In this document: positions 1 to 46,221 of the stretch, in pieces
How the letters are laid out: every line of letters starts with the position of its first letter
How positions within the stretch are numbered: position 1 is the stretch's first letter
Origin: Lasiosphaeris hirsuta
Taxonomy: Eukaryota; Ascomycota; Sordariomycetes; Sordariales; Lasiosphaeriaceae
Direction of reading: 5' to 3'
Length of the DNA stretch: 64,000 bases
NCBI GenBank assembly: GCA_030549175.1
Contig: JAUKUA010000007.1
Location: 248,001-312,000, forward strand
Translations under genes and position numbers: made by a program
The notes under the pieces: generated by a model
What the model was told of the DNA's origin: nothing
The model's input: the letters and a program-made list of their open reading frames with translations, nothing else
Database searches by the model: none

Positions 1-1576
1 CCGGTCCCAAGCCTTTCATACTCGCCTCCTGCCGTCCGTCTTACCACCAGCAGGTACAAATCCTGACTCTCGTGCTTCGCCCCCAAAATGATGGCCCACT
101 CTAGGCAAAGGGTGCTATAATCTTCAACATCATACATCACACAGCCCCTGAGCTCCCCGGAGGAATCCAATATCTGGTGGCGTATTCCTGTGGAATCTGC
201 TCCCAAGTCCTTTTGTAAACGGCAATTCCGAAACTCCCATACATTGGTGACCAAGGCCCTCCCGTCTCTCGTGAACTGGAGATTGCGAAACTTGTCCCAT
301 TCCCCATAGCGAATTTGGTGGAACTGGATGCCTCCCTTATATCTCATCCATGACCATGACGGTACTTCACTGTTTTCGTCAACCGTGTTCTCCTTTCTCG
401 GGATCGTCCAATGCCAAATGAGAGTTCGGTGAAGGAACTTCTCGAGGATGCCGTAGCTTTGTTTACACTCGAAAACTGAACCAATACGAGCCAAAAGCCC
501 AGATAATGCAACAGCTCTATCGGCTGGGACTGAGAGCTCGCGGGTGGAGTATGTCTCGAAGAGAGACTGTAGGAACTTGATAACATTGTTGAAATAGTCA
601 CTGCCCAGACGACTTGGGAAATTTGGATCGAGGTCGATGAACTTCTCGGAACCTACGATGCTAAAGAGTAGGGAATATTTAAATTAAAGGACATTCATGT
701 GAAAAAGTATTGGGTTCTTACCTCTTCATTTGGGTATAATCCTCACCGTATATCCCAAAGCCACATTCGAAATACATGCGATAAGAGCTGAAATGAACGG
801 TTCGACGGGATAGGTATCTTTCTTGCAACACCCATGCCCGCTGATTAAGTGGACCATTATCCACTTCTTGAGCGAAATTTACTGCCCTAGTATGGAGGTA
901 AGCTTGTGAATTTGGGCTTTCGTTGTCAGAAACATACCGTGGCACGTTTTGGTTATCTCTGTGAGTCTCATCTTCGTCACGTCCGAGAAACCCCGCCTCC
1001 GAGCTGACAGCCGATGTCGCAGCGATTGTGCAGTACGCCCCAGCGTAGACGGCTTCCATACGCCCAGACTCTGTCGCCCAGTCCCCCCCACTCCCTTGGA
1101 TGATGCAAAGAGAATCAATCCAGAGGTAACGTATATCAAGACCCTGAGACACTTTGATAGCGTCCTGGAATGTCAATGGTAAGCTTCCAACACAAAACCC
1201 ACGTCCCTCCTTGCGGGAGTCAATATTTTGTGTAGTTGTGCAATGCTGCGGTATCTTGCCGGGCGCAAGCTTGCCCCAACAATGGGATAAAGCGATGTAT
1301 CGCCGAGAGGAAACTTTCTGACTGAAAACTTCCTGATTGGAAACAAGCCTCAAAGCGTCTGGGTTGCCTATATCGAGAACTCTTGTCGGGAAATTTCCTT
1401 CAAGCGCTCTGGGACGCTGGCAACATGTATGGGCATCGCATTGCTGGAGCCAGGCACGAAGCAGTGAAAAACGTAAAGGACTCGTTGGAGAGGAAGTTGA
1501 AGCTGAAGCTGCAGGTAGGTTCTTCGAAAATTGAAGTCGGAAGCTTTCTTCCACAACTTGAAAAAAATCCTGATCT
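1..1576 (-). CDS. HET-domain (heterokaryon incompatibility) protein, partial
   Basis: Minus-strand gene running off the left edge. The exon from 1576 down to 722 encodes the HET core: a W-L-x2-C linker with two cysteines, the YIALSHCWG block, a WIDSLCIIQ block and the RAWVLQER block. A GT-AG intron at 661-721 joins in phase to a second exon that stays open to base 1 and contains a tryptophan-rich PSWSW segment typical of HET C-terminal parts. HET proteins act in non-self recognition and cell death after hyphal fusion (family knowledge). No in-frame ATG exists on the gene side: the frame is open back to an acceptor-like CTAAC..CAG ending at 1577, so the start must lie upstream of the tandem array at 1577-2852, or the gene is 5'-truncated. 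I found no convincing upstream exon. Confidence 0.85.
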
Positions 1577-2852
1577 CTGAGTTAGCAAAGGCCACACAGC
1601 CCTGACATCCAGGGCTACTTACTCTCTATACCAACACACACAACAGGGTCAGCAAAGGCCACATAGGAACTGATATCCAGGGCTACTTACTTCCTATACC
1701 AACACACACAACAGGGTCAGCAAAGGCCACATAGGAACTGATATCCAGGGCTACTTACGAACTATACCAACACACACAACAGGGTCAGCAAAGGCCACAT
1801 AGGAACTGATATCCAGGGCTACTTACGAACTATACCAACACACACAACAGGGTCAGCAAAGGCCACATAGGAACTGATATCCAGGGCTACTTACTCTCTA
1901 TACCAACACACACAACAGGGTCAGCAAAGGCCACATAGGAACTGATATCCAGGGCTACTTACGAACTATACCAACACACACAACAGGGTCAGCAAAGGCC
2001 ACATAGGAACTGATATCCAGGGCTACTTACTCTCTATACCAACACACACAACAGGGTCAGCAAAGGCCACATAGGAACTGATATCCAGGGCTACTTACCA
2101 ACTATACCAACACACACAACAGGGTCAGCAAAGGCCACATAGGAACTGATATCCAGGGCTACTTACTCCCTATACCAACACACACAACAGGGTCAGCAAA
2201 GGCCACATAGGAACTGATATCCAGGGCTACTTACCAACTATACCAACACACACAACAGGGTCAGCAAAGGCCACATAGGAACTGATATCCAGGGCTACTT
2301 ACGAACTATACCAACACACACAACAGGGTCAGCAAAGGCCACATAGGAACTGATATCCAGGGCTACTCACGAACTATACCAACACACACAACAGGGTCAG
2401 CAAAGGCCACATAGGAACTGATATCCAGGGCTACTTACTCCCTATACCAACACACACAACAGGGTCAGCAAAGGCCACATAGGAACTGATATCCAGGGCT
2501 ACTTACTCCCTATACCAACACACACAACAGGGTCAGCAAAGGCCACATAGGAACTGATATCCAGGGCTACTTACTCCCTATACCAACACACACAACAGGG
2601 TCAGCAAAGGCCACATAGGAACTGATATCCAGGGCTACTTACTCTCTATACCAACACACACAACAGGGTCAGCAAAGGCCACATAGGAACTGATATCCAG
2701 GGCTACTTACTTCCTATACCAACACACACAACAGGGTCAGCAAAGGCCACATAGGAACTGATATCCAGGGCTACTTACGAACTATACCAACACACACAAC
2801 AGGGTCAGCTAAGTGCTAAACTGAAGAATAAATATCCAGCATAGATGGTTAC
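1577..2852 (-). repeat. Tandem array of intron-shaped 68-bp units
   Basis: Seventeen copies of a 65-bp block (first 1626-1690, last 2714-2778), spaced by variable trinucleotides. On the minus strand each block starts GTAAGT, has TTTGCTGAC about 20 nt before its end, and ends GGTATAG: donor, branch site and acceptor of a typical Pezizomycotina intron. Read by eye, the blocks are identical except for one T-to-C at 2368, which gives GTGAGT. The 18 spacers take only five values on the minus strand: TTC, AGA, GGA, GAA and TTG. The array ends in a shortened 46-nt intron-like block (1577-1622, GTAAGT..GCTAAC..CAG) joined to the HET exon, and at the far end in a diverged 71-nt block (2782-2852) whose donor is GTAACC. 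It occupies an intron position in the HET gene. Confidence 0.9.
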
Positions 2853-4854
2853 GAACTTCCTACATCTCAATGGTTAGTATCCTTGACAGTGACATATCAA
2901 GAGGCCGCATACACTCTGCATTCTATTAGCGATGCTGTGTTAAAAATTTCTCAGTTGTAGTACCTCAAATAAGTCACGATCCATCCTTGTCTAGAACCGA
3001 CTACCCGGGCAGAAACAGAACAAGGAGTCAAACAGAAAGGCCAGGAAAAAGCTTTGCCGGGTGTATGCGCTGTGGTGGCTTTGTTGCAAGAACAAGATGT
3101 GTTGGGGAGATCAAGGACAATGGGCATCGCTTCTGTGGTGGGCATGCTGCCGCCCGAAGCTATCTGGCGCTAACTTCGGAGACCCGTGGAAATGCCCTTA
3201 TTGATGAGGGGGCTGGAATTGCCGCAAAACCAAAACCAGCTGCATCTTGCATCAGTTGGCCAGTTCTGGTTGGAGCCGCTCTTGACCGGGTGCGAGGTTA
3301 TTGGTTGGTAGTTGGCCAAACACCAGCAGCTGGCTGGTGCGCGCATGCTGAGCCTGTCGATCAATGGAGCATGATTGGGACGGGGGTTCTGCGGGGCGGC
3401 CGTGCAGGACCGGAGAAGGGTTGGGAACGAAATCTATTGGGGATCTCATGTTGCACGCTGTGGCACTTTTGGGTGCTGCTGGCAGATTAATGCACCGTTG
3501 AGAGTCTTGGAGGGCCTGATTTGGTCGGTCCGTGTGAGCCGAAGTAGCCCCGACCACATAGGCCACGGATTGGCGCACAATCCGATCCTCTGGCAGCCAG
3601 AGTGTAAGGTAACGTGATTTGAAGCGCTGCGCTGGCGTTGGTTGAACATGCAACGGCTTGTAACAGCGGCAGTGATGAAGAACCGAAGGCCCATAGTTCT
3701 GATGATGTGGAAGGGTTGGTTCAGTAGAAGGCGCCATGGGAAGCATAGCTGCGGACTGTTTGATAGGATGCCGTTGATATAGAGGTTTTGATTCGGAGAG
3801 AGGAGGTGGTCGGTCATTGGAGTGTTTGGACCTGGGGAAGAGGTTCAGTGAGAATGTGGCGTCACAGATTGTCGATGGTGTTGCTTGGTGTTGAGTGGCT
3901 ATAGACATTTGAACCCAACGAGAAGGTTCAATTTTGGAGGTGTTTATGCTCAAGTGAGTCAGTTATAGGCCCCCTTAGTTATATTGTTTCATCAGGAATC
4001 GGATAGGCACGACATAAGAGCTCAGTGTTTCATACATCACCGAGCCAATGACTGGATGGAGAACTATTACATGAGATGCATTGATTAGCCCATCGATTCA
4101 GAAACAGGGCATTAAATTCATACTTACAATACTACAATAAATATACAACTCTTCTGAAGCTAGTGGTGCTGAGAATTCATAGGGGAACATAGGGATATAC
4201 TGTTATTCAACCATTTCCCGCCTGAATGAAGGTAAATAGCGAGTTAGCAAAGATTTATGACTGTCTAAAAATAGGGGAAATATAGAGTAGATAATTAGTT
4301 ACGTCTTGGTCATTGAATCATAACCTCTATATACCGCTGGCGTAGCTTTGAGGTTAATAACCCTGGGGATCCTTATATTCTATCGTTCGTATTATAAACA
4401 TATCGGGATTGCTTGGAAGGTAGGAAGATTTCACACCTTAGTCCTGGTTGCAGAGTGTCGTACTGGTTGCAAATTACGGTATTCGCTTGTTGTGAAACCG
4501 TTGCATTGTCTGCAGAGCAAAATCTCCAACTTCCCACTTTTCTGGTTAGTCAACCCTTGTTCTCCGGCGCCCCCTCGACGAAGCCAAGTCGTTCTGAAGA
4601 AGGAAGGAAAATTTGTGGTGTCGATTTGGGGGTTTTGTACGTCCTGCCTGTTTCGCATTTGAAGGCCGATGGGGGCCGACGGGGGCTGATCGCCCAGTGT
4701 GTCACCTATTTAATAACGTCCGCTCGTATCCACTGCCCCAATCTGTGCAGGTGATAGGGTGAATAGAGAAGCCCTATTGGCTTCATTGGCTTATCACCCA
4801 CGTTAGCTGCTGTTGTGTCTGTTTGCACGCGCTTGCGTGCATGTTTAGCGTGGG
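2853..4854. other. No confident gene
   Basis: About 2 kb between the array and the DUF2235 gene. A minus-strand frame is open from an ATG near 3909 down to 3252 (about 218 codons), but its predicted protein is low in recognisable motifs and the opposite strand is also open over part of it, so I do not call it. The part just beside the array (2853-2990) could carry a short upstream HET exon: a TACTAAC branch-like motif followed by TAG lies at about 2856-2881. Bases 3960-4350 are AT-richer and hold nothing recognisable. Confidence 0.4.
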
Positions 4855-7800
4855 ATGCCTCAGACGGCCACAGCCTTGCGGGCACTTCAATTTACCTATA
4901 GGTCCCTTCCGAGTCTGGAAACTGGCGCGTTGCGTCGTTCCTTTCGTCCTCCTTCAGCAACCCCAGATTCACCGACAACAGTGACGGCATGCCACAGTGA
5001 CATCATGATGCAACGACCGGTGCGACTCATTATCTGCGTCGACGGCACATGGTGCTCTCCCGACGGATCCCACGGGGCAAGGAATCAGAACATTACCAAC
5101 ATCTACCGCATTTTCGCCAGCGTTCAGACGGGAATCGTCAAGGACGCTGCAGATGGCCGAGAATACGAGCAGCGGAAGCACTACGTGAAGGGAATAGGAG
5201 CCGACGATGACTTGTCGTGGGTGCATCGAGTGCATGTTGGGATCCACGGCAACAAATGCCTCGAGCAGATACGCGACGTGTACCAGATGTGCTGCCAGCT
5301 CGGTTCCGAGGACGAGGTCTGGATGTTTGGCTTCAGTCGTGGCGCCTACGTTGTACGAGCAGTGGCGGGCCTGCTGCATTTCCTCTGGTGTCTCGTGCCG
5401 CCGTCGCGAGACGATTCCCGCAGCAGCTTCAAGCAAGAATACGAACAGATGTTGAAGCTCTACGCGAAGATGCAAAAGCAGAAAAAGCTGGAGGAAGGTG
5501 CCATTCACCACATGTTCGTGGCGAAGACGCAGCCGCCGCCCAAGATTCGATTTGTTGGCGTCTTCGACACGGTCAAGGCCGTCAGCGACGAGAACCTCTA
5601 CGACATTTCCTTCAACCACTCGATTGCTCACATGAGACATGCCGTGGCCCTTAGCGAGAACCGCGACCACTTCCGACCCGAGACTGTCTATCCCAACCTC
5701 AGCAACAAAGCCAGCGGCCTCATCAAACGCAGCATTGTACAGGCGTGGTTTATCGGCGCCCATATGGACATGGGCGGATCCAACGAGCACGACGGCCTGG
5801 CTTTGTACCCGCTGCAGTGGATGCTAATCGAAGCCCAAAACCTGGGGCTTTGCCTTGCTTTTGACGGCAACTATGGTGGTCGCTCCAGGCTCCCAAACCC
5901 ACTACACGTCGTGGCGCTAGAATCCGAGGCCGAGGGCCGTGAGGAGGAGACAAACACACCGTGGTCTTGCAAGGTCAAAAACGGCATCGTCGTTACAATG
6001 CACGACGTGCGTAGCGTCCACGATCCCAAGGGGGAGCACGGAGAACGCTATCAGATACGTACACACCAGAAGAGGGCGACCGGATGGCCGAAGAGCCCTC
6101 GGCGACCGTTTGCGCTTTCCGACGGCGAGTGGGAGTTGATCGGCTACTGCGGGTTTGCGCCGCAGGGCACCATTATCCATCCATCTGTCTATCTGCTCCT
6201 TGATGAGTTCTCCAAAAGCACTCTCGGGATCCCAACGTTTGGCTTTAAGAAAGATCAGAATCCCATCGAGCGGTTGCGGCTGACCATGCTAGGCACTACG
6301 ACGATGGGGATAAGCCCCAGTACCTTGGAGGTGCCAAACATGGGCTTCTGGAACATGCAAGCTTTGTCTACTTTGAAGGGCCCCGGCGCCATTCGCATTC
6401 TTGTTTGTGGCAATTGCGGAGTGGGCAAGTCCACGCTCATCAATACCGTGTTTGGCGCCGAAGTGACAACAGCGTCTGACCGAGTGCGTGGCACCCACGA
6501 AATCCGGCAGGAGCTGACGAGCAAGGATCGATCGGATCTCATCGTGCACGATTCAGGCGGTTTTGAAGCTGGGACTGCGGATCAGTTCGATGCGGTCGAG
6601 AGCTTCCTAAAGGAAAAGTCGGCCGAGTCCAACATTGATGACCGCCTTCACGTCATCTGGTTCTGCATCGAGGCTACCTCGGATCGGACCGTCCAGACTG
6701 CAACGGAGAAGCTCTTCGAAACTGTTTCGCATCACGCACAGGATGTCCCCATCATTGTTATCGCGACCAAGAAGGATCGTCTTTTCGGAGCAAAGATGAT
6801 GGAACTCAAACAACTTCGCAGGAGAGAGAACAGGAAAGTTACAATGGAAGAGCTTGATGGATATGCCGAGGTCCAGGTCCAAACCCGCGTCGAGGAAATC
6901 AAGGAGGAGATGCTGAAAGTAAAAGGCGGCCGGTTCGACGACTGCATCGCTGTGGACAAAGGTATGATGGATTTCAAAACTGTTCAGACCCTGATGATGA
7001 GCGAGCTCTCGGACTAACCCATCCGTCCTTCACCTCCCAGACGACGAAAGTTCCATCCAACGACTCACCGAGATCACGGCCGAGTCTTTCACTCACGACC
7101 GGGTGAGGTTGCTCTACATCCGCGCCCAGGTCACTCGGATTGACTTGAAGATTTCACTCGCGCTAGACGAGACGATGATTGTCTACAAGCGTATACTCAA
7201 GACGGCCACGGGCTCCGGCAGCATCCCTATGGCATCCTCGTCGAACCGTATGGCGGCTGCCATTAATATTTGCAGCGTCATCATCAATTGCTTCGGACTG
7301 CCCCGCGTCACGCCCGAGACTCTTTTCCAGATCTGCAAGGCCAACCTTCTGGATGACCTCGGCAACAACTTCGCCGTCTTCCTCGCCGAAGGTTTAGCAA
7401 CCGTTGCCATGGGCGCTACCATCCTGACGGCTGGCATGCCTTTCTTCCTCGTTCCTATGGCTGTCAACATCCCTGCCGTTGTGCCAGCCACAACGCGCCT
7501 GTTCCTCATGCTGGCATGCGATCTCATCCTCGTCCTAACCCGAGCTTTCCAAGAAGCTGTATCCAGGTGTGTCGGACAGCCCCTGGAGCGCGACGTGGAG
7601 ACGGCGGCCGTGGCGTACCGGGCCCACTACAAGTCGGTACACGACGAGGTCCGCAGGCTGGTGCCACGGAGGGACGTGGTGGCCAATTTTAGAGTAGACC
7701 GGGTTTTTGAGGGAATCAAGGGAGTCGTGGGAAAATACAGAAAAGAGATGGATGTAGGGGAGCCAGCAGCCTTCTCGTCGTTGCCAGCTAGCCCGCCACT

Positions 7801-45971: not shown

Positions 45972-46059
45972 TTGGTCTTGGGTCTTGCGTCAGGAATGAA
46001 CTGGTGGTTAGGTAATAAAAGCGTCGGTTGACCACCAGGAAGACTGAATCCTACGCATC

Positions 46060-46221
46060 TTACACACACTAAGGCTCTTACACACACTGAGGCTCTTACA
46101 CACACTGAGGCTCTTACACACACTGAGGCTCTTACACACACTGAGGCTCTTACACACACTGAGGCTCTTACACACACTGAGGCTCTTACACACACTGAGG
46201 CTCTTACACACACTGAGGCTC
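46060..46221. repeat. 18-bp minisatellite, nine units
   Basis: Unit TTACACACACTGAGGCTC repeated with 18-bp spacing from 46060; the first unit has TAAGG in place of TGAGG. It creates long artificial frames of repeating CVRASV on the minus strand that are not genes. It lies 145 bp from the 3' end of the DUF899 gene. Confidence 0.95.

Follow-up and report, generated by a model that had tools for sequence, protein, structure and literature searches.

The window, the stretch of 64,000 nucleotides of DNA from Lasiosphaeris hirsuta (Sordariales, Lasiosphaeriaceae) that was analysed, carries in a HET-domain gene a tandem array of introns separated from each other by single codons. The pattern is a class in this genome and not a lone minisatellite: at least four further HET, HET-NACHT-ankyrin or ankyrin genes contain arrays built of their own introns, and at least two HET genes contain repeat-free runs of one-codon exons. 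We consider it probable that the blocks are spliced singly and insert a hypervariable peptide of single-codon exons, with the near-identical introns letting codons be duplicated and exchanged without loss of the reading frame.

Structure of the window array and its host gene

On the minus strand, 17 introns of exactly 65 nt alternate with 18 trinucleotides in the order TTC GAA AGA GGA GGA GGA TTC TTC TTG GGA TTG AGA TTC AGA TTC TTC GAA AGA, which are of only five kinds (TTC, AGA, GGA, GAA, and TTG). The donor is GTAAGT in 16 of the 17 blocks and GTGAGT in block 7, and this is the sole substitution among the introns. The array thus holds one change in 1,105 intron nucleotides compared with at least six in 54 exon nucleotides. 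In all 17 blocks, CTGAC begins 27 nt before the block end and the acceptor is TATAG. The initial annotation, made from the letters alone, had described seventeen 65-nt blocks that differ at one base and end in TATAG, with three-base spacers drawn from the same five kinds, and both descriptions are exact. Tandem Repeats Finder placed the array at 1584-2813 with a period of 68 and 18.1 copies. A genome-wide search for the 65-nt unit had also been proposed there. Our DNA search returned 19 matches (17 full and two partial), all within the window array, although an absence of matches elsewhere does not prove that other copies are absent.

The host had been taken for a HET gene, and the domain search confirmed this assignment. 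The gene model and the evidence for each part are as follows.

2913..2921, minus strand: first coding exon as proposed, reading ATG CAG AGT (M Q S), with an in-frame ATG followed by the donor GTATGC; the least certain part of the model
2860..2912, minus strand: proposed intron 1, 53 nt, GTATGC..ACTAAC..ATGTAG (gene model)
2857..2859, minus strand: proposed edge micro-exon GAA (E), with the acceptor TAG, 3 nt and the weak donor GTTCGT
2782..2856, minus strand: edge intron 2, 75 nt; its 3' part is homologous to the unit over 32 nt (97%)
1623..2781, minus strand: core array of 18 one-codon micro-exons (peptide FERGGGFFLGLRFRFFER) and 17 introns of 65 nt (sequence)
1570..1622, minus strand: last intron, 53 nt, GTAAGT..GCTAAC..ATCAG; its 5' part is homologous to the unit (86% over unit positions 1-43)
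722..1569, minus strand: large exon, entered in phase 0, that encodes the HET domain (PF06985, E 3.6e-30; domain match)
661..721, minus strand: ordinary 61-nt intron of the HET gene (gene model)
1..660, minus strand: exon for the C terminus of the HET protein, with the stop codon just past the window start

The model reads MQS-E-FERGGGFFLGLRFRFFER-DFFQVVEESF.. with no stop up to the window edge, and the HET gene comprises 520 amino acids from the array end to the stop. The first exon (MQS) and the edge donors GTATGC and GTTCGT are weak guesses. The acceptor of the window model was placed beyond a CAG that lies very near the branch-like motif. Adjoining the HET gene on the plus strand (4849-7017) is an open frame of 722 amino acids, which encodes a Tle1-like catalytic domain (PF09994, E 2e-53) followed by a GTPase-like MMR_HSR1 domain (E 2e-9).

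Related arrays in the genome

The genome was scanned for two acceptor-NNN-donor junctions 45-75 nt apart with TAG and GTAAGT fixed, a pattern blind to arrays that use different motifs. The scan listed 94 junction pairs, in five arrays, and the reversed-pattern control gave none, which excludes chance. The core arrays found with the 3-nt pattern hold 102 micro-exons in total, all exactly 3 nt long.

Window array (C12), 1623..2781, minus strand: 18 core micro-exons; host HET
L028 array, C2:440466-441454: 15 core micro-exons; host HET
L029 array, C7:3364686-3367139: 37 core micro-exons; host HET
L030 array, C7:5936241-5938044: 26 core micro-exons; host HET, NPHP3_N and ankyrin, with borderline NACHT
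L027 array, C2:351705-352069: 6 core micro-exons; host exon ankyrin only

The NACHT match of L030 scored 23.0 bits in one search and 27.3 in another, at a cut-off of 26.7. The window gene (predicted protein P0001), L028 (P0005 plus exons), and two large exons of L029 matched HET only, and the domain search detected neither NACHT nor ankyrin in them. The remaining exons of L028 and L029 gave no further family. An ordinary minisatellite, with differences throughout the unit and no tie to gene structure, was rejected as an explanation, as variation is concentrated in the three exon bases and all five arrays lie in HET or ankyrin genes.

The arrays span 0.36-2.5 kb. Their introns measure 65 nt in the window array, 65, 66 or 67 nt in L028, 60, 65 or 67 nt in L029, 61 or 69 nt in L030 (61 being an edge intron), and 64 or 82 nt in L027. 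The length differences are not multiples of three in L028, L029 and L030; the difference in L027 is 18. Within each array the units are near identical, less so in L027, the shortest, whereas the consensuses of different arrays match in only 44-51 of 71-80 aligned columns. This is the mark of concerted evolution. Compared with shuffled sequences, the intron consensuses resemble each other among the three HET arrays (z 3.5, 4.0, and 2.7) and between the two ankyrin arrays (z 3.6), and pairs across the two groups gave z of 0.0-2.3; the shuffles kept the donor and acceptor but did not hold the branch motif fixed, so that part of z is shared splicing signal. On the within-group values, a reading of the arrays as having mutually unrelated introns did not hold. 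Because of this likeness within groups, the five arrays should not be counted as independent instances. The consensuses would fit two old intron families that were later homogenised array by array.

Variation of codons and introns

Mean pairwise diversity was calculated on units of modal length (17/17 in the window array, 12/14 in L028, 31/36 in L029, 24/25 in L030, and 4/5 in L027). The exon and intron values were 0.637 and 0.0018 in the window array, 0.530 and 0.038 in L028, 0.563 and 0.0083 in L029, 0.609 and 0.030 in L030, and 0.444 and 0.14 in L027, so that codons are 3- to 350-fold more diverse than introns. The claim that differences in the window array are nearly all confined to the spacers is borne out by these values. 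Among all three-base windows of the unit, the codon ranks first in variability in four arrays (in the window array, first of 68) and third in L027. Minimum-change counts per column also gave an exon excess, with P values of 7e-8 for the window array, 8e-4 for L028, 2e-6 for L029, 2e-4 for L030, and 0.01 for L027; one diverged edge intron each was omitted in L029 (35/36 used) and L030 (24/25 used).

Among the 25 codon pairs separated by a single base change, the change falls at position 1 in 14 pairs, at position 2 in 8, and at position 3 in 3. Only one of the 25 is synonymous compared with an expectation of 23% (P 0.011); the pairs are not independent, and the P values for selection are indicative. 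Nine pairs are transitions and 16 are transversions, and the latter number led us to reject repeat-induced point mutation as the sole source of the codon variants.

Most of the encoded residues belong to the set R, F, L, D, N, W, G, Y, and E. Nearly throughout each array, one residue is written with one codon (in the window array, F is always TTC, R always AGA and G always GGA), the exceptions being L in L029 and R at the L030 edge. In another array, the same residue is often written with a different codon. This uniformity within arrays and difference between them indicate that codons were copied together with introns. Exchange of units is poorly documented, because repeated codon triplets exceed those of shuffled orders in L029 only (P 0.013, compared with 0.51 in the window array, 0.83 in L028, and 0.19 in L030; L027 is too short). 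In L029, a block with two marked introns was found four times, with the codons CGG-TTG-CGG, AAC-CTG-AAC (twice), and AAC-CTG-TTC. In this one array, the four copies look like what codon exchange along identical introns would leave.

Evidence bearing on the probable removal of single blocks

Straight read-through of the five arrays meets 8-98 stops per frame. The arrays must therefore be removed at least in part, and a read-through coding repeat was rejected on this count. The 102 micro-exons contain no stop in phase 0. When their concatenations were shifted, stops appeared in the window array (one), L029 (two), and L030 (five), and none appeared in L028 and L027. The flanking exons join in phase 0 in the gene models. 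The spacer exon is 3 nt throughout despite the variable intron lengths, and the same chains were recovered when exons of 1-15 nt were allowed.

A branch-like CTRAY motif has a fixed place in every intron of four arrays and in three of the five introns of L027, and the acceptors are YAG throughout the five arrays. For L028, L029, and L027, the models take the nearest YAG downstream of the branch-like motif as the acceptor. In L030, an AG a few bases earlier is skipped and the acceptor was chosen partly by frame; in the HET paralogue L035 (described below), it was chosen by frame.

Chains with exons of exactly 3 nt are rare by chance: one chain of two appeared in 3.84 Mb of first-order Markov sequence and none in real control DNA. 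With exons of 1-15 nt, six chains of three appeared in 1.28 Mb of control. At the latter setting, the window contained two other chains, one of three (8, 6, 8) and one of four (14, 1, 1, 1), which we took as chance. The chain of four coincides with an 18-bp tandem repeat (46058-46221; 9.1 copies at 99%).

From these signals in the DNA, block-wise splicing of the arrays is likely. The initial annotation had proposed that each spliced block adds one codon and keeps the frame, and this part gains strong, if indirect, support from the four further arrays, the phase-0 models, the lack of stops and the two paralogues without a repeat. Its other suggestion, intron birth from an introner-like element, found no support in that form, as the genome search found the 65-nt unit only at the window locus and one-codon exons also lie between non-repeated introns.

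Arrays in ankyrin genes

The two ankyrin genes make the strongest case for block splicing, since their arrays are flanked on either side by coding sequence whose frame is known. In the L030 model, an ankyrin exon ending in ..LLVKASKVDYEYE is followed by the array and then by TPLLRAVEKQDRIAVQLLLENGA. In the L027 model, the array lies between ..LLVNHEAEVNYSYFPN and SPLSQAVEIGNKAMVELLLKSGAK, which ends with a stop. The flanks in ankyrin frame are LLVKASKVDYEYE / TPLLRAVEKQ in L030 and LLVNHEAEVNYSYFPN / SPLSQAVEIG in L027. Judging from the ankyrin consensus, both arrays stand where the loop between two ankyrin repeats would be. This inter-repeat loop is a known binding surface. PMC4986451 reports positively selected sites in this region of a Podospora ankyrin NLR.

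Relatives of the L030 gene occur in Lasiosphaeria hispida and Cladorrhinum. Their models, P0127 and P0124, keep the ankyrin frame up to KIDYNY and KVNYWY, respectively, and depart from it past these points (read by eye), as gene finders would do before one-codon exons. The public model P0122 begins with the letters of the L030 gene and ends by eye inside a near-identical 87-bp coding repeat in its ankyrin-coding exon (L030:6321-6888; 6.5 copies at 95%). The L030 gene combines a coding repeat in its ankyrin part with a micro-exon array behind it.

Another ankyrin gene, at the NLR locus L031, has a 99-bp tandem repeat (L031:2958-5092; 21.6 copies at 90%), and the chain search gave no one-codon exons at this locus. 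The locus L062 adjoins the closest L030 paralogue; no junction was found on its gene strand, and it encodes a WD40-like stretch (by eye). Outside the window, at G000:C12:32548-32661, an ankyrin match reaches near the position where the L030 array begins; it may mark another array.

HET paralogues and other HET proteins

A HET profile search of the genome gave 380 first-look candidates; 150 were scored and all 150 matched. The paralogue survey covered the best 30 of 139 HET matches with 1,500 nt on each side, so that more distant arrays would be missed. Chains of one-codon exons were present at five of the 30 loci (the window, L028, L029, L035, and L060), and 25 had none. L060 has one chain of four (TAT, AAG, CAT, CCG) and L035 has two chains of two (GAA, TAT; AAC, GCT) rather than one of four, and no tandem repeat was detected at either. 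The HET gene of L060 (C7:1611351 region) contains in-frame stops and may be a pseudogene.

In L028, L035, and L060, the one-codon run lies near, mostly just before, an N-terminal motif composed of W, a few residues and FDNxFA, which is also present in HET relatives such as P0007, P0013, and P0018. In L035, the model between the last one-codon exon and the motif is provisional. The stretch before the motif is short in relatives (EVF-TS-NDW in P0007, SSF-QY-DGW in P0013). The L028 model has MEEDSF there, then W, E plus 15 codons, and then SDDW. The predicted proteins P0001 (window gene) and P0005 (L028) start downstream of their arrays. P0002 had no relative in a prokaryote contig collection, as expected for that collection.

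Two HET models from other fungi, P0014 (Phaeosphaeriaceae sp. PMI808, residues 1-290) and P0039 (Macroventuria, residues 1-30), have N-terminal stretches like EAAANASVLGGVAV. By eye these resemble translated introns and are possibly mis-annotated intron arrays. A protein search with the intron-like repeat of P0014 matched P0014 alone.

Comparison with known systems

Schistosoma micro-exon genes consist of strings of short symmetric exons that yield variable peptides. Their exons are longer than the 3-nt exons described here and their products are secreted, and they are not known to contain a homogenised intron array. Introner-like elements share with our arrays the many copies of near-identical short introns. 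Such elements are dispersed over unrelated genes, whereas the genome search placed the window unit at a single locus (19 of 19 genome matches in the window array). Stwintrons, described as complex fungal introns removed by consecutive splicing reactions, are nested, whereas the introns here stand side by side with a 3-nt exon between them. A stwintron was rejected for the window array, as donor, branch-like motif and acceptor are all present in each block and 3 nt separate the blocks.

The closest known exons are those of the NACHT-ankyrin (nank) genes of Tuber melanosporum, for which citing papers state that codon-sized or 3-bp micro-exons are alternatively spliced (PMC4986451, PMC3689799, PMC10197012; original report Iotti et al. 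2012). According to these papers, tens of 3-bp exons occur in NLR-type ankyrin receptors and are said to diversify the sensor part. Many 3-bp exons in one gene are common to both systems (18, 15, 37, 26, and 6 core exons here, by sequence). Unlike what the citing papers describe for Tuber, our arrays also occur in a Sordariales host and in HET genes that matched neither NACHT nor ankyrin: L030 has the Tuber-type combination of NACHT and ankyrin, the HET genes of the window, L028 and L029 do not, and L027 has ankyrin only. Our arrays combine homogenised, near-identical introns with hypervariable codons.

In logic, the repeats with high internal conservation in Podospora are the nearest parallel (PMC12222747). 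As PMC12222747 and PMC4986451 describe them, such repeats of fungal NLRs are kept near identical by concerted evolution, and HNWD/het-d and het-e of Podospora and ANK/TPR NLRs show the same near-identical tandem units with few hypervariable positions in allorecognition-type genes. In NLR repeats the unit itself is coding (WD40, ANK, TPR), whereas in our arrays the homogenised unit is intronic and one codon per unit is coding. The arrays thus work like these repeats without being one. In the available text of a survey of Sordariales NLRs from 2025, intron/exon structure comes up only in connection with gene-model correction (PMC12258605). Our literature search, mostly of papers open without subscription, found no description of such arrays in HET genes, in Sordariales or as homogenised introns. 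Within this search, the HET-gene hosts, the Sordariales fungus and the homogenised introns look new; codon-sized micro-exons are already known from Tuber.

Proposed mechanism and alternative readings

The window array would supply a HET-domain gene, of the heterokaryon-incompatibility type, with a hypervariable N-terminal part, each 65-nt block being an ordinary spliceosomal intron and each trinucleotide a one-codon phase-0 exon. Splicing one by one would insert about 18-19 residues (E-FERGGGFFLGLRFRFFER) ahead of the HET region, and in the two ankyrin genes it would place the peptide between ankyrin repeats, at the loop position. The near-identical introns could offer a homology track for duplication, loss and exchange of units, on which the codon rides as a cassette. 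They would absorb breakpoints and indels, so that length and order could change without a frameshift, with recombination as the putative mixer. Selection for recognition diversity may keep the codon variety. A recognition function is suggested by the domain families (HET, NACHT-ankyrin) together with the pattern of variation. A bolder version, which we put forward only tentatively, is a codon-cassette generator in which the introns are kept homogenised as recombination tracks and the one-codon exons are gained, lost and traded among units with the frame intact, possibly with skipping on top. If this were true, the array would work like an antibody hypervariable loop built codon by codon, placed ahead of HET domains and between ankyrin repeats, and automated annotation would overlook it.

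Removal of the whole array as one length-variable intron, from the first donor to the last acceptor, would make it a minisatellite, located in an intron or in the 5' untranslated region, with splice-like motifs left as relics. This reading draws on the upstream coding exon of the window gene, a putative exon of three codons, and on the downstream starts of P0001 and P0005. Against it, the trinucleotides never contain a stop and in four of the five arrays no other window varies as much, donors and acceptors are intact, the pattern was found only in HET/ankyrin genes (five of five arrays), and one-codon exons also exist without a repeat. It would also require removal of a stretch longer than the array span, compared with the ordinary 61-nt intron of the window gene, and we regard it as unlikely. 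Less likely still is intron birth, in which an introner-like or reverse-spliced intron entered a pre-existing coding stretch at one codon boundary after another. Such insertion would leave introns that are alike and exons that are diverse, and fungal introner-like elements exist. Against it, the DNA search found the 65-nt unit at no other genome locus, the edge introns are half-homologous to the unit, and the codon uniformity within arrays with differences between them fits copying of codon-plus-intron units and not an old coding stretch.

Splicing of single blocks, our preferred reading, is compatible with a combinatorial variant, in which real one-codon exons are alternatively skipped to give each individual many peptides with the order kept and the subset varied. 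With every core exon 3 nt long and in phase 0, any donor-acceptor pairing holds the frame, and the donors and acceptors within an array are near identical and hence equivalent. In fungal splicing, intron definition would instead favour pairing inside each 65-nt block. For Tuber, PMC4986451, PMC3689799, and PMC10197012 state that 3-bp micro-exons are spliced alternatively. Overall, we hold skipping to be possible rather than probable.

Biological implications

The arrays join two puzzles, namely the variability of fungal recognition genes and the upkeep of identical introns next to variable exons. If splicing removes the blocks singly, a receptor loop would be varied in a frame-safe way by moving intron-flanked codons, and the arrays offer a clean test of 3-nt exon splicing. 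The present observations also suggest that receptor gene models (P0001, P0005, P0122, P0124, and P0127) fail where specificity may lie. Its presence in at least five recognition-type genes suggests that the array architecture may be a DNA-level way to diversify a recognition protein.
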